From Granulicoccus phenolivorans DSM 17626 = NBRC 107789 = JCM 15570 (GTDB lineage: Bacteria; Actinomycetota; Actinomycetes; Propionibacteriales; Propionibacteriaceae), in assembly GCF_000423085.1 (NCBI RefSeq), contig NZ_AUHH01000001.1, positions 124,001 through 188,000 on the forward strand: a DNA stretch of 64,000 nt, in the 5' to 3' direction. A model generated the notes under the pieces. The model ran no database searches and was not told the DNA's origin. It saw only the letters and a program-made list of their open reading frames with translations. The position numbers were made by a program, and so were the translations under genes. Positions 13,404-18,818 of this stretch are shown here, one piece after another; the first letter of the stretch is position 1; each line of letters begins with the position of its first letter.

Positions 13404-15258
13404 GCCCTTCGTGGTCGGCGGCGCCAACCTGAAGGTGCCGGTCGCCTATGACCTGGCGAACACCGTCCAGTGCTGGGGGGACGGCAATCTGCGCCTGAAC
13501 GACCTGACCAGTGTGGCCGACCTCGGGCTGAACTCGCTCGGCATGGTGGTCGACCCGCTGGGCACGATCATCAGCGCGGCCCTGGACTTCCTGAAGGACT
13601 GGTTGTTGGCCAATTGCAAGCCGTTCAGTGATGTCGTCGACGCCCTGCTCGGCAGCCCGGAGCAGATCTTCGCGCAGTCGCAGCAGTGGGCGCAGGTCGC
13701 GGCCGACTGTTCCACGCTGCGCCAGGATCACCGGATCACCTGTTCGGATCTGCAGAGCTGGACCGGGGCCGCCGGGGCCGGCTACCAGGAGGTGTGCGCG
13801 AACACCGATCCGGTCTTCGAGACCGCCCAGGGCGCGGCGACCCGGCTCAGCCAACTGGTGAACGCCACCGGCGCGCTGGTCGGGGCGATCCGGGAGTTCC
13901 TGTGGCAGTTGCTCAAGACGGTGCTCACCGAACTGATCAAGTGGGGCCTGGCGGCGCTGGCCGCCGCGATCCCGTCGGTCGGCGCCTCGATCGGGGCGTT
14001 CACCGCCTGGGCGGTCGGACGGTTCGCCTGGCTGGGGTCCAGGTTCGCCGGGACGCTGGCCAAGCTGCTCACCAAGTGCGGGGACATCGCGCGCAAGCTG
14101 GGCCTGTCCGGGAAGCTGTTCGACGACGCCGCCGCGGCGCTGCTGCGGGTGGCGGGCAGGCTCGGCACCACCGCCGCGCGCGCCCCCCGGACGCCGTTCG
14201 GGCACGGGACCCCGTTCACCGTGCCCAGGAAGAATGACGCGCAGATGCCGTTCAAGTGGAACGGCGATGACACCAAGCCGCTGATGGACGGGTACAAGAA
14301 GTACAAGGACGTCAACAAGCACCTCAAGAGCGCCGGCAAGGGGGTGGATCCCGCCCTGGATCAGCATGCGACCAACAACGGCATCATCGATGGGGCAGGT
14401 CCGACCCTGAGTCCGCTGCCGCCGCGACAGCAGCCGACCGAACCCTCGCAGCCGAGCCAGCCCACACAGCCGAGTCAGCCCACACAGCCGAGCCAGCCCA
14501 CGCAGCCGAGTCAGCCCTCGCAGCCGACCGAACCCAGTCAGCCGAGCCAGCCCAGTCAGCCGAGCCAGCCCAGCCAGCCCACACAGCCGACCGAACCAAC
14601 ACAGCCCAGCCAGCCCACACAGCCGACCGAACCAACACAGCCCAGTCAGCCCTCGCAGCCGACCGAGCCCACGCAGCCCAGCCAGCCGTCGCAGCCCACG
14701 CAGCCGACCGAACCCAGTCAGCCGACGCAGCCCTCGCAGCCCAGCCAGCCAACCGAGCCGAGTCAGCCCACGCAGCCGACCGAGCCCACCCAGCCCAGCG
14801 AGCCCACGCAGCCCAGCGACCCGGCTCCGCAGCCGCCGGCAATCACCTTGGACACCGATGGTCCCGGCGAGCAGGCTCCGCTGGAGATCCGTCCGGGGGC
14901 CGAGCCCGGCCTGCAGGTGAGGGTGGACCCCGACGGCGAGGGTGGGGCTCCCGCTCACGAGATCACCGTCACCACCGGCCCCGATCAGGTGACCCGGGTC
15001 TCGCTGGTGCTGGACCCGAGCGCGGGCACCGAGCCGATCTCGGTGGAGGTTCCCCCGCAGCCGGCCGGTGAACCGGCACCGACGGTACTGGTGGATGTCG
15101 ACGGAGAAGGCGGGCAGGCCCCGATGGAGTTCCGGGTGGAGCACAACGCCGACGGGTCGACCTCGATCACTGTCGACCCGGACGGAGCCGAGGGAGCCCA
15201 GGCGGAGATGACCTTCACCTGGGACGCCGAGGACGCACCTCCCCCGATGCGCCCCTGA
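13393..15258 (+). CDS. Large WXG-type protein with PSQ repeat and acidic repeat tail
   Basis: 621 aa. Residues 1-150 form a helical region with SWTGAAGAGY (WXG-like) near 119-128. Residues about 150-235 are hydrophobic or amphipathic (IREFLWQLLKTVLTELIKWGL and onward), and a basic segment follows. Residues 348-476 are 43 successive Pro-(Ser/Thr)-(Gln/Glu/Asp) triplets. The last 135 residues hold four related DxDG units (DTDGPGEQAP, DPDGEGGAPA, DVDGEGGQAP, DPDGAEGAQA). It looks like a type VII-exported protein with a rigid stalk; no toxin domain is recognised. TTG 13393 is chosen because it keeps the N-terminus and overlaps the upstream stop; GTG 13411 is the alternative. Confidence 0.6.
   Translation: MSVEPFVVGGANLKVPVAYDLANTVQCWGDGNLRLNDLTSVADLGLNSLGMVVDPLGTIISAALDFLKDWLLANCKPFSDVVDALLGSPEQIFAQSQQWAQVAADCSTLRQDHRITCSDLQSWTGAAGAGYQEVCANTDPVFETAQGAATRLSQLVNATGALVGAIREFLWQLLKTVLTELIKWGLAALAAAIPSVGASIGAFTAWAVGRFAWLGSRFAGTLAKLLTKCGDIARKLGLSGKLFDDAAAALLRVAGRLGTTAARAPRTPFGHGTPFTVPRKNDAQMPFKWNGDDTKPLMDGYKKYKDVNKHLKSAGKGVDPALDQHATNNGIIDGAGPTLSPLPPRQQPTEPSQPSQPTQPSQPTQPSQPTQPSQPSQPTEPSQPSQPSQPSQPSQPTQPTEPTQPSQPTQPTEPTQPSQPSQPTEPTQPSQPSQPTQPTEPSQPTQPSQPSQPTEPSQPTQPTEPTQPSEPTQPSDPAPQPPAITLDTDGPGEQAPLEIRPGAEPGLQVRVDPDGEGGAPAHEITVTTGPDQVTRVSLVLDPSAGTEPISVEVPPQPAGEPAPTVLVDVDGEGGQAPMEFRVEHNADGSTSITVDPDGAEGAQAEMTFTWDAEDAPPPMRP
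14434..14820 (+). repeat. 43-copy 9-base repeat coding Pro-Ser/Thr-Gln/Glu
   Basis: Uninterrupted nonamers of the form CCN-(AGY/ACN/TCG)-(CAG/GAR), 387 bases inside the large WXG-type gene. Codon variation between copies shows that it is not a very recent expansion, though blocks such as CAGCCGAGCCAGCCC recur exactly. Confidence 0.95.
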
Positions 15259-15758: not shown

Positions 15759-15795
15759 CGCTGAGCAGGGCGCGTCCGGGCGCCGAAGGAGGATC

Positions 15796-16971
15796 ATGTT
15801 CACCATCGTCGGCCAGGTGCAGCACTATCCCTGGGGATCCGCCGACGCGATCCCGGGGCTCCTCGAGGTTGCGGCCACCGGCGAACCGCATGCGGAGTAC
15901 TGGCTCGGCGCGCATCCCAAGGCGCCGGCGGCCACCGCGTTGGGCCCGGACCTGCGCCAGGTGATCGCCGAGACTCCCGCGCTGCTGGGTGCGGCCTCCC
16001 GGGCGGCGTTCGGGGACCGGTTGCCGTACTTGTTCAAACTCCTGTCGGCCGATCAGGCGCTGTCGATCCAGGCCCATCCCTCGCGGGCGCAGGCCCGCGC
16101 CGGATGGGCCCGGGAGGAAGCGGCCGGGCTCGCGGCCGACGACCCGACCCGGAACTATCGCGACGACTGGCCGAAGCCGGAACTGATCGTGGCCCTGACC
16201 CACTTCGAAGGGTTGTGCGGTTTCGCCGAACCGGCCCGGCTGCGCGATCACCTCGCCCGGTTGAATCTCCCGGCGCTGGCCGAGCTCGCCGCGCCGCTGG
16301 CCGAACCGGACGGGATCGCCACCGTATTCGGGGCTCTCCTGGCGCGCGGGGATGCCGCCCTGGTCGCCGCGGCGGTGGCCGCGGCTCGCCCGTACGCCGA
16401 TCCGGCCGGGGACGAGTTCGCCCGCTGGTGCGACACCGCGGTGCGGCTGGCCGCGGACTACCCGGGGGATCCCGGCGTACTGGCGGCGCTGCTGATGCAC
16501 CGCTTCACCCTCGAGCCCGGGCAGGCGCTGTTCCTGCCGGCCGGCAATCTGCATGCCTACCTGCGGGGCACCGGGGTGGAGGTGATGTCGAACTCCGACA
16601 ATGTGCTGCGCGGCGGCCTCACCGGCAAGCACGTCGACGTTGCCGAGTTGACCGCGGTGGTGGACTTCGCCCCAGGCTTCCCCGGGCCGGTGCCGACCCG
16701 CGAATCCGCGCCCGGCGTCCTGCTGTACGCCACCCCGGCCCCGGAGTTCCGGCTCTACCGACTCCACGATCCGCACACCGAGCTGCCCGGCGACGGCGCG
16801 GCCCGGATCGTGTACGTCCTGGACGGCGCGCTGACCCTGCGCGGGGACACCGAACTCCGGCTGACCCGCGGTGCGGCCTGCTTCGTTCCGGCCGCGGAAA
16901 AGGTCCGGGTCGAGGGTCGCGGGGAGGCCTTCGTCGCGACCCCCGGACTGGACCCGATCCGACCGAGCTGA
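15796..16971 (+). CDS. manA: Mannose-6-phosphate isomerase, class I
   Basis: 391 aa zinc enzyme that interconverts fructose-6-P and mannose-6-P and feeds GDP-mannose and envelope glycan synthesis. Cupin-type zinc ligands are in SIQAHP (Q92, H94); others are expected in KPEL and in FLPAGNLHAYL. The PMI signature region HAYLRGTGVEVMSNSDNVLRGGLTGKHVD is present. Length is normal for class I PMI. ATG 15796 is preceded by AAGGAGG at 5 bases. The stop codon lies in a hairpin shared with the convergent lysin gene. Confidence 0.93.
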   Translation: MFTIVGQVQHYPWGSADAIPGLLEVAATGEPHAEYWLGAHPKAPAATALGPDLRQVIAETPALLGAASRAAFGDRLPYLFKLLSADQALSIQAHPSRAQARAGWAREEAAGLAADDPTRNYRDDWPKPELIVALTHFEGLCGFAEPARLRDHLARLNLPALAELAAPLAEPDGIATVFGALLARGDAALVAAAVAAARPYADPAGDEFARWCDTAVRLAADYPGDPGVLAALLMHRFTLEPGQALFLPAGNLHAYLRGTGVEVMSNSDNVLRGGLTGKHVDVAELTAVVDFAPGFPGPVPTRESAPGVLLYATPAPEFRLYRLHDPHTELPGDGAARIVYVLDGALTLRGDTELRLTRGAACFVPAAEKVRVEGRGEAFVATPGLDPIRPS

Positions 16972-16992
16972 GGCGGCCGAGCCGCCGCTCAG
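16968..16992. terminator. Hairpin containing both stop codons of manA and the lysin gene
   Basis: Arms CTGAGGCGGC and GCCGCCGCTCAG around a CGA loop, with a small bulge. The manA TGA and the lysin TGA (TCA on +) lie in opposite arms. Confidence 0.55.
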
Positions 16993-18482
16993 AAGGTGTC
17001 CGGCGCCCGGAGCGTACCGCCGCGCAACCGGGCCACCTCGGCGCGCAGTGCGGTCACCTCGGTGCGCAGCTCCCGGATCGCGCCGAGCACGAGATCCTTG
17101 TTGAAGTGGTCGTACTGGGCCTCGGCCGCGACACTGGTGGTCCCGTCCTTGTACGGGGTGCTGTTGTCGGCACCGCGGGGCAGTTTCGGGTACTGGGTGA
17201 ACAGCGCGTCCCGGGCCCCTTCCTTGGCCTGGTCACGCACGATGGCGTAGAGGCGTCCCTCCACGACCTCGAAGACGATCTGTCGCAGTTCCTCGATGCT
17301 GGCCATGTCGATGTCATCCTTGTCGATGTGGAGTGGGCGGGGGTTCGCCGGCAGGGCGGCGGAGTAGGCCCGGACGGCGTCCTGCCAGGTCCGGGTCGGC
17401 TTGATGAAGTTGCGTACGCTGTCGGCCTTCAGGCCGTCCCGGCCGGCCAGCCCGGAGCGAACCTGTCCGGCCGTCGACTCCATCTGGTGGGGGCAGCCGT
17501 ACCAGACCACGTGCAGGTGCTCTCCCTCGGTCCACCCGAACTCGCGGGTACGCGGGAACGGCATCGTTCCCCAATCGGCCCACACCTGGCGCTGGGCCGG
17601 GGACCACTGGCCGTTGTCGGCGACCCCGCCCTTGTCGTGGGTGTCGGCCGAGGCACGAACCCGGCCCCTGTTGTAGCCCCATTGGAAGAAGTCGAGGTTC
17701 TGCCGGATCAGCCCGCGGGCAAGCATGTCCGCCTCGATCAGCGGGAGCGTGATCGCCATGCACCGGCAGCCCAGGCCGCGGGCGCCGCCGGGAAGTTCGA
17801 TGTCGACGGCCGGGTCGTCGGGTGACAGCGGCGGGATCTCGATCCGGGGTCGGACCGGGGGTTCCACCGGCGGGGGCGGATCGGTGTTGAACCAGTGGAA
17901 GAACCGATTGAGATCAAGATCCCCGGCGTAGCCGCCGATCCGTCCGTGTTCGGTGTACTGGTGGCCCAGCAGCAGGCCGTCCCATCCGCTCGGCGTGCGG
18001 GTGTTGGGGATCTTCCAACCGGTGGGTTCGTTGGCTCCGTAGTCGGCCAGCCACAGCCGGCAGCCGTGGTCGCGGACCGGTTGCCAGCGGAACTCGTCAC
18101 AGACCGAGTAGTTCGCGTAGAAATCCACCGGGAGCGGCTGCTCGGCCTTGATGATCCGGACGAACTCGGCGCACCACGCCACGTTTCCCTGCTGCGCCTC
18201 GACGGGTTCCCAGTCCAGGACCAGCCCGTCGAGCCGGTCGAGGTAGGGCCGGACCTTGCGGAGGAACAGGTCGGCGTCCTGGGCGGGCGTGTTGGACGGG
18301 TCGGCGAAATGGAAGGCACCGAGCCTGGTCACCCCGTTGTCGAGCGCGTTGGCCAGGTGCCGTTCGAAAAGCTTGTCCGGCGTATGCATCCCCTGTGAGG
18401 CCTTGAAGATCGCCGCATCCACCCGGACCGCGGAGAATTCGAAATCCCGATCGTGGTTCGAAATATCGATGACATCCATCAT
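16989..18482 (-). CDS. Phage-type endolysin: GH25 muramidase plus M15-like domain
   Basis: 497 aa, likely bacteriophage-derived. Residues 1-200 match GH25 lysozymes: DVIDISNHD start, FKASQG, LGAFHFADPS and LVLDWEP with the catalytic D90/E92 pair. After a proline linker (about 203-222), residues 240-345 carry an M15 peptidase-like zinc pattern: S278..H282..G285..D289 (THDKGGVAD) and EHLH (H322, H324). The C-terminus (about 465-490) is a short coiled coil, LVLGAIRELRTEVTALRAEV. Together these would cut both glycan and peptide of peptidoglycan. SD GAGGGA precedes tandem ATGs; the first (18482) is used. No holin or phage gene is nearby. It lies just past the 3' end of tRNA-Thr, a common integration site, so it may be a prophage remnant. 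Confidence 0.8.
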   Translation of the reverse strand: MMDVIDISNHDRDFEFSAVRVDAAIFKASQGMHTPDKLFERHLANALDNGVTRLGAFHFADPSNTPAQDADLFLRKVRPYLDRLDGLVLDWEPVEAQQGNVAWCAEFVRIIKAEQPLPVDFYANYSVCDEFRWQPVRDHGCRLWLADYGANEPTGWKIPNTRTPSGWDGLLLGHQYTEHGRIGGYAGDLDLNRFFHWFNTDPPPPVEPPVRPRIEIPPLSPDDPAVDIELPGGARGLGCRCMAITLPLIEADMLARGLIRQNLDFFQWGYNRGRVRASADTHDKGGVADNGQWSPAQRQVWADWGTMPFPRTREFGWTEGEHLHVVWYGCPHQMESTAGQVRSGLAGRDGLKADSVRNFIKPTRTWQDAVRAYSAALPANPRPLHIDKDDIDMASIEELRQIVFEVVEGRLYAIVRDQAKEGARDALFTQYPKLPRGADNSTPYKDGTTSVAAEAQYDHFNKDLVLGAIRELRTEVTALRAEVARLRGGTLRAPDTF

Positions 18483-18656
18483 GGTCAGGGTCCCTCGATG
18501 AGAACATGAGCGGCCGGCAGCGGGACCGGCCGGACTGGTGGAGCGTCGGCGGCTTCGCCGATCGCCCTTGCGCTGGGGGATGCCGCCAGCCTACGCAGGC
18601 CCGCGGCGGCCGCCAACGCTCGTGTCCGGGGGACATCGGGCGCTGCCGGCGCGGGG

Positions 18657-18729
18657 AGCCCCTGACAGGATTCGAACCCACGACATCTTCTTTACAAGAG
18701 AAGCGCTCTACCAGCTGAGCTACAGGGGC
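18657..18729 (-). tRNA. tRNA-Thr (anticodon UGU)
   Basis: Full cloverleaf: acceptor GCCCCTG/CAGGGGC (7 bp), D-arm GCTC/GAGC, anticodon arm CTTCT/AGAAG around loop CTTGTAA (anticodon TGT), T-loop TTCGAAT and discriminator T. The T-stem GTGGG/CCTGT has two GC and three wobble pairs, which is weak. CCA is not encoded. The gene points toward the endolysin. Confidence 0.95.
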
Positions 18730-18818
18730 GTGCAGGTCCGCACCCGGGGGCGGAAAACGCACGACGCCATTGTGCCCGTCCGGGCCACCGGTGTCGAAGT
18801 CGGCCCGCCCCGGGGTGG

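Follow-up and report, generated by a model that had tools for sequence, protein, structure and literature searches.

The stretch of DNA analysed here (the window) comprises 64,000 nucleotides of Granulicoccus phenolivorans. A lysin gene occupies positions 16989–18482 on the minus strand, as an open reading frame (ORF) that begins with ATG, is uninterrupted and encodes 497 amino acids, with a GH25 domain, a predicted LAS-type domain and a helical tail. Its neighbour on the same strand is tRNA-Thr(UGU), identified with ARAGORN at 18655–18729, whose 3' end lies 172 nt upstream of the lysin start codon. On the other side lies manA (mannose-6-phosphate isomerase; 15790–16971, plus strand), which is convergent with the lysin gene, their stop codons being 17 nt apart. 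The preliminary description had placed the lysin at 16989–18729 and 174 bases past the tRNA; the gene does lie there and just past the tRNA, but that interval takes in tRNA-Thr itself and the distance is slightly smaller. A Shine-Dalgarno (SD)-like GAGGGA (18491–18496, minus strand; SD energy -6.4) precedes the main lysin start. A consensus scan located a promoter-like site upstream of tRNA-Thr (18769–18797, minus strand; one found versus 0.1 expected) and no terminator-like site between tRNA-Thr and the lysin gene, and this promoter-like site might also serve the lysin through transcriptional read-through.

A phage endolysin in its original setting would be surrounded by a phage genome with a holin. 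No such setting was found, and the lysin is alone among host genes, as the preliminary description had stated. A PHROG scan of the proteins of ten flanking genes revealed no phage hallmark; their matches were to ABC-transporter and unknown-function families, with one weak match to a tape-measure family (E 7e-4) from a low-complexity protein. Between 15 and 24 kb of the window there was no small membrane ORF that resembled a holin and had coding bias, and no tyrosine recombinase (PF00589) was found on the 277-kb contig that carries the lysin (C1), all those of the genome being on other contigs. Terminase and portal genes are present in the assembly solely on contig C46 (G000; L109/L112), a phage-like, partly N sequence of 30 kb with terminase, portal, major head protein and integrase genes and 45–50% GC, which represents a foreign phage or a contaminant within a 70% GC assembly. 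C46 was set aside as the partner phage of the lysin because its GC content does not fit that of the host (about 70% at the lysin). A contractile injection system as the user of the lysin was also dropped, since no phage tail sheath gene was found in the genome. Elsewhere in the neighbourhood, a 617-aa protein (13405–15258) with a long low-complexity P/S/T/Q/E repeat tract and no Pfam match comes after a 114-aa helical protein, in surroundings that look like a secreted WXG-type region.

The N-terminal part of the protein (residues about 5–194; 17901–18470, minus strand) is a GH25 domain, confirming the muramidase assignment made earlier. The PF01183 match (E 9.2e-21) covers residues 5–184 and profile positions 1–179 of 180, at 75.4 bits versus a cut-off of 27, and the same part scores as phrog_291 endolysin (E 1.6e-30). 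The acidic residues expected of GH25 enzymes are present in an alignment to 4kru, namely D6 (DIS at 6) and D90 and E92 (LVLDWEP at 87–93). Residues of this type have a known catalytic role in the GH25 family, and muramidase activity is predicted on this basis. Comparison with phage lysins, as had been proposed, showed the GH25 part to be 32–33% identical to endolysins of Curtobacterium and Arthrobacter phages, and this part also matches GH25 enzymes of known structure (4kru and 1jfx). GH25 endolysins of actinophages and clostridial phages (the lysin of Curtobacterium phage Kalimba, the 4kru autolytic lysozyme and, from Streptomyces, 1jfx) share with the lysin an N-terminal GH25 domain, a modular layout and the lack of a signal peptide. 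However, those found align over the GH25 part only (39% of the lysin), and none has the second domain. A Pro-rich linker (residues about 198–232; 17787–17891, minus strand) leads from GH25 to this second domain (residues about 232–385; 17328–17789, minus strand). The C-terminal tail is predicted to be helical with a heptad-like end, in agreement with the coiled-coil end noted before, based on the sequence and a low-confidence single-sequence model; single-sequence prediction of the full protein gave a pLDDT of 37 and was unusable.

The second domain had been described as M15-like. Homologues were identified in 21 of 395 Actinomycetes genomes, in 86 stretches of IMG/VR and, with a single peptide pattern, in 350 stretches of genome_contigs. 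Alignments of 26 and again of 90 sequences show two invariant elements, S-x2-T-H-x6-D and H-x-H, represented in the lysin by H282-x6-D289 and H322-x-H324. Among the 26 members no meaningful match to Pfam, PHROGs or NCBIfam was obtained, and the domain profile has no match in the PDB. In particular, none of the 26 matches M15 in Pfam, and none was found with M15 among NCBIfam or PDB profiles, although a kinship with M15 may nevertheless exist. A model built from the 90-row alignment reached a pLDDT of 87.6. Plain Foldseek of this model against the PDB returned no significant match, and against a VLP/viral library a single match with no named function (A0A8S5VEW5, E 7e-4). A re-ranking structural aligner placed Escherichia coli MepA (1tzp_B) first, with Z 5.6 over 115 aligned residues, versus 3.8 for the next, unrelated structure. 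The motif spacing of MepA (HASHQTGLDVD, HMHV) equals that of the second domain. Since hhalign of the domain profile against E. coli MepA was not significant (E 0.21, probability 0.3), the link to MepA consists of motif and fold, and by sequence the domain is not an M74 member. The LAS motif is defined as H-x(3–6)-D plus H-x-H (PMC3927764). Because the invariant motif, its spacing and the predicted fold point to MepA, and the motif fits this definition, the second domain is likely to have the fold of a LAS-type zinc peptidase, and it would be expected to bind metal and to cleave peptide bonds. The peptidase-like part of the earlier description is retained as a likely LAS-type domain, which has no Pfam M15 match and by fold comes nearest to the M74 enzyme MepA.

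Several characterized systems resemble this domain in part. MepA (M74, LAS group) shares H-x6-D and H-x-H and is the best structural match, but it is a periplasmic enzyme of Gram-negative bacteria with no significant sequence or profile similarity. Listeria Ply500-type phage endolysins (M15) are described as LAS enzymes in work listed among the references of PMC3927764. They combine a zinc peptidase with a phage lysin, as predicted here, and probably belong to the same overall fold group, whereas the second domain carries H-x-H instead of the M15 motifs. Mycobacteriophage LysA enzymes, whose peptidase domains are termed N1–N5 (PMC3314691), can be likened by description, as they contain peptidase and glycosidase modules that had likewise escaped domain libraries; there the peptidase comes first, unlike in the lysin, where GH25 does. 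In total, the LAS family has several hundred members, found in phage lysins and in secreted actinobacterial proteins. A LAS-like domain was also seen embedded in very long ORFs of phages, of 1000 to over 2000 aa, resembling tape-measure or tail proteins (L158, L163, L166, L169, L180, L185 and others).

The closest relatives of the lysin lie in phage lysis regions (L189, L192 and L106). The nearest LAS-domain relative, a 323-aa protein of the uncultured phage contig L189, shares 45% identity across 154 residues; its gene is followed after four bases by a separate gene for a GH25 endolysin, and tail and virion genes surround the pair. Phage contig L192 encodes a 501-aa endolysin with GH25 at 6–193 and LAS at 219–374, the same order as in the lysin, and this gene adjoins a small membrane ORF and tail genes. 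A prophage protein of genome G027 (L002/L106) contains the LAS domain and adjoins HNH and tail genes, with a serine recombinase near. The layouts in L192 and L189 indicate that the lysin has a phage-endolysin architecture and that the two predicted activities also occur as neighbouring genes. Among annotated phage records only EBPR siphovirus 6 and Dulem virus 32 carry the LAS domain, and this near absence explains why it is missing from PHROGs. tblastn with the last 303 aa of the protein as query gave no match in 50,697 phage records. Whole-protein searches of genome_contigs and viral_contigs also gave no relative, with patterns specific to the lysin, but domain-based searches did find relatives. 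One could instead propose that the gene encodes an ordinary secreted autolysin of the host, a GH25 enzyme to which a peptidase domain has been added, since secreted LAS relatives with a signal peptide and a peptidoglycan-binding-like repeat are common in actinobacteria. However, the nearest relatives of the lysin form a phage lysin subgroup and not the secreted one, the GH25 part fits phage endolysin families, and no signal peptide or transmembrane stretch is present, so we consider an autolysin very unlikely.

The genus is represented by this single genome. No full-length homologue is present in 147 genomes of the family, two of which have the second domain only, as LAS-domain fragments. The host flank used for synteny, manA, was found in 53 of 57 relatives, and in 12 relatives the equivalent interval between manA and tRNA-Thr lacks the lysin, a comparison that had been suggested with the original description. 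Ten relatives have no room for it, because only 17–170 nt lie between manA and the codirectional tRNA-Thr(UGU) that follows it. The interval contains a kinase-like gene in G008 and is filled in G013 by three nearly identical repeats of ~177 bp in tandem (L073:11975–12548). Together, the GH25 and endolysin matches, the relatives in L189, L192 and the G027 prophage, and the absence from relatives make a phage origin well supported.

The preliminary description had placed the lysin next to the 3' end of tRNA-Thr and proposed looking for a copy of that end. A prophage integrated at a tRNA 3' end is expected to be accompanied by a direct repeat and an integrase, and the lysin, just 3' of tRNA-Thr and in the same direction, might then be all that is left after deletion of the rest. 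Neither mark was found: no copy of tRNA-Thr sequence of 12 nt or more occurs elsewhere in the window, its 3' end included, and no integrase is present on the contig, so the insertion idea lacks its defining marks. No other phage fragment is seen in the 172 nt upstream or the 17 nt downstream of the lysin. Furthermore, manA and tRNA-Thr(UGU) point towards each other in the window and in G013 (L073:11901–13712) and are codirectional, with the tRNA after manA, in the other relatives showing the pair. This reversed orientation is a local inversion common to the window and G013, and since G013 has it without the lysin, it either predates the lysin or arose independently of it. These results argue against the insertion link, and a prophage remnant at this tRNA is an unlikely source of the gene.

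Composition does not set the lysin apart. Its GC content is 67.6%, versus 69.7 ± 3.4% in 41 local genes, so that the lower GC reported for the start region relative to the flanks is real but slight. Its codon score is typical (z = +0.42, rank 28 of 41 local genes) and GC3 is 0.86–0.90 in all three parts, in contrast to the lone LAS protein of G002 (L003), which has a GC3 of 0.69 next to neighbours of 0.91 and 0.94. The lysin is compositionally not foreign and its codon use is host-like. The preliminary description had taken host-like codon use, combined with presence of the gene at this locus in all relatives, as a sign against its reading; the first is observed here but the second is not.

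Such codon use, together with an intact frame, intact motifs in both domains and a good ribosome site, would fit a domesticated lysis enzyme, retained and expressed by the host. It might serve, for instance, in programmed lysis or in releasing cytoplasmic products, with leakage or a holin encoded elsewhere assisting it. Another lone LAS lysin amid host genes (L003) and four Nocardioides records with nuclease-LAS-GH25 fusions amid host genes are consistent with this. However, the codon use is explained equally well if the gene came recently from a high-GC phage, the lysin occurs in one genome only, and there is no signal peptide, no holin-like gene near and no phage-sheath or contractile apparatus in the genome. 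Domestication appears improbable.

We consider it highly probable that the gene is a phage endolysin gained horizontally by this lineage and now solitary beside manA and tRNA-Thr, the source phage having presumably been lost around it. Some observations weigh against this reading: host-like codon use and GC content fit an old, selected host gene as well as a recently captured one, no attachment repeat or integrase marks the route of arrival, and a single genome of the genus gives no measure of age or selection. As a captured endolysin, it would cut the glycan strand through its GH25 domain and a peptide bond of the stem or cross-bridge through its LAS-type zinc domain. The helical tail may bind the wall or multimerise, perhaps together with a short form produced by internal initiation of translation. 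Because signal peptide and transmembrane segments are lacking, the enzyme is expected to stay cytoplasmic and to act only once the membrane has been breached by a holin, by another phage or through cell death.

Endolysins in which a single gene yields two polypeptides are known, such as CTP1L and LysIME-EF1 (PMC9430671) and Ms6 LysA (PMC3314691). In these, an in-frame internal start with a ribosome site lies between the catalytic part and the tail, as in many LAS family members. In many tailed relatives the border between LAS domain and tail reads GAGGACGAC, followed by ATG, GTG or TTG. An SD core with an in-frame start codon was present at this border in 25 of 68 non-redundant tailed members, versus 2 of 68 in an equal-length stretch inside the LAS domain (Fisher p = 5e-7); the other two frames gave 4 and 0 such cases. 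Where the border reads E-D-D-V, GTG encodes the valine in 5/5 (background, 28%), and TTG encodes the single leucine at a border of this kind (background, 8%). An acidic protein motif by itself would account for GAGGAC, but not for which start codon is used. These data suggest that the tailed LAS relatives are two-polypeptide lysins.

For the window gene, the corresponding border reads AAGGA-N10-ATG, with AAGGA at 17317–17321 and the candidate internal start at codon 393 (ATG393; 17304–17306, minus strand; SD energy -5.8 kcal/mol). A strong internal start, first taken from the family pattern, was weakened by ranking all in-frame start codons of the lysin gene, as others equal or beat ATG393 in SD energy and the signal is only average in the window. 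Unlike in the known two-polypeptide endolysins, the short form is a prediction here, with a signal no better than that of other in-frame codons. A separately translated tail of 105 aa (residues 393–497; 16992–17306, minus strand) is thus only plausible, by analogy with the SD and start codon seen family-wide at the border.

As an instance of phage gene capture, the solitary lysin gene is modest and its origin ordinary; the second domain is unusual and uncatalogued. The more useful outcome is this wall-peptidase-like family, with an invariant zinc-type motif and no Pfam, PHROG or PDB match, which occurs in lysins and very long ORFs of phages as well as in secreted proteins of actinobacteria. 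At present its members carry either a hypothetical-protein annotation or one that refers solely to their other domain. Enzymes active on the walls of high-GC Gram-positive bacteria might be sought in this family. With a second start apparently built in ahead of the tail, these proteins also form a new group of lysins in which the two-polypeptide idea can be tested. In a further-reaching version, a stand-alone two-polypeptide phage lysin would have been put to use by the host as a functional lysis enzyme, and its second domain would found a LAS peptidase family not described before; we regard this as quite unlikely. If true, the lone lysin of G002 and the Nocardioides fusions would be parallel lysin captures by actinobacteria.

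The second solitary LAS lysin, in G002 (L003:1087–2037), has low GC3, and its C-terminal part can also be aligned with the phage protein of L189. It is flanked by ATP synthase-side genes on one side and by an isomerase-like gene on the other. The fusions, in Nocardioides and Nocardioidaceae records (L194:2879–5464, L195:2019–3638, L196:2915–5446 and L197:3008–5254), join an EEP-type nuclease (PF03372, shown in L194), a LAS-like domain and GH25 (PF01183). They have no evident signal peptide and lie amid host genes. In L196, dnaK adjoins the fusion gene, and a small hydrophobic ORF overlaps its end.
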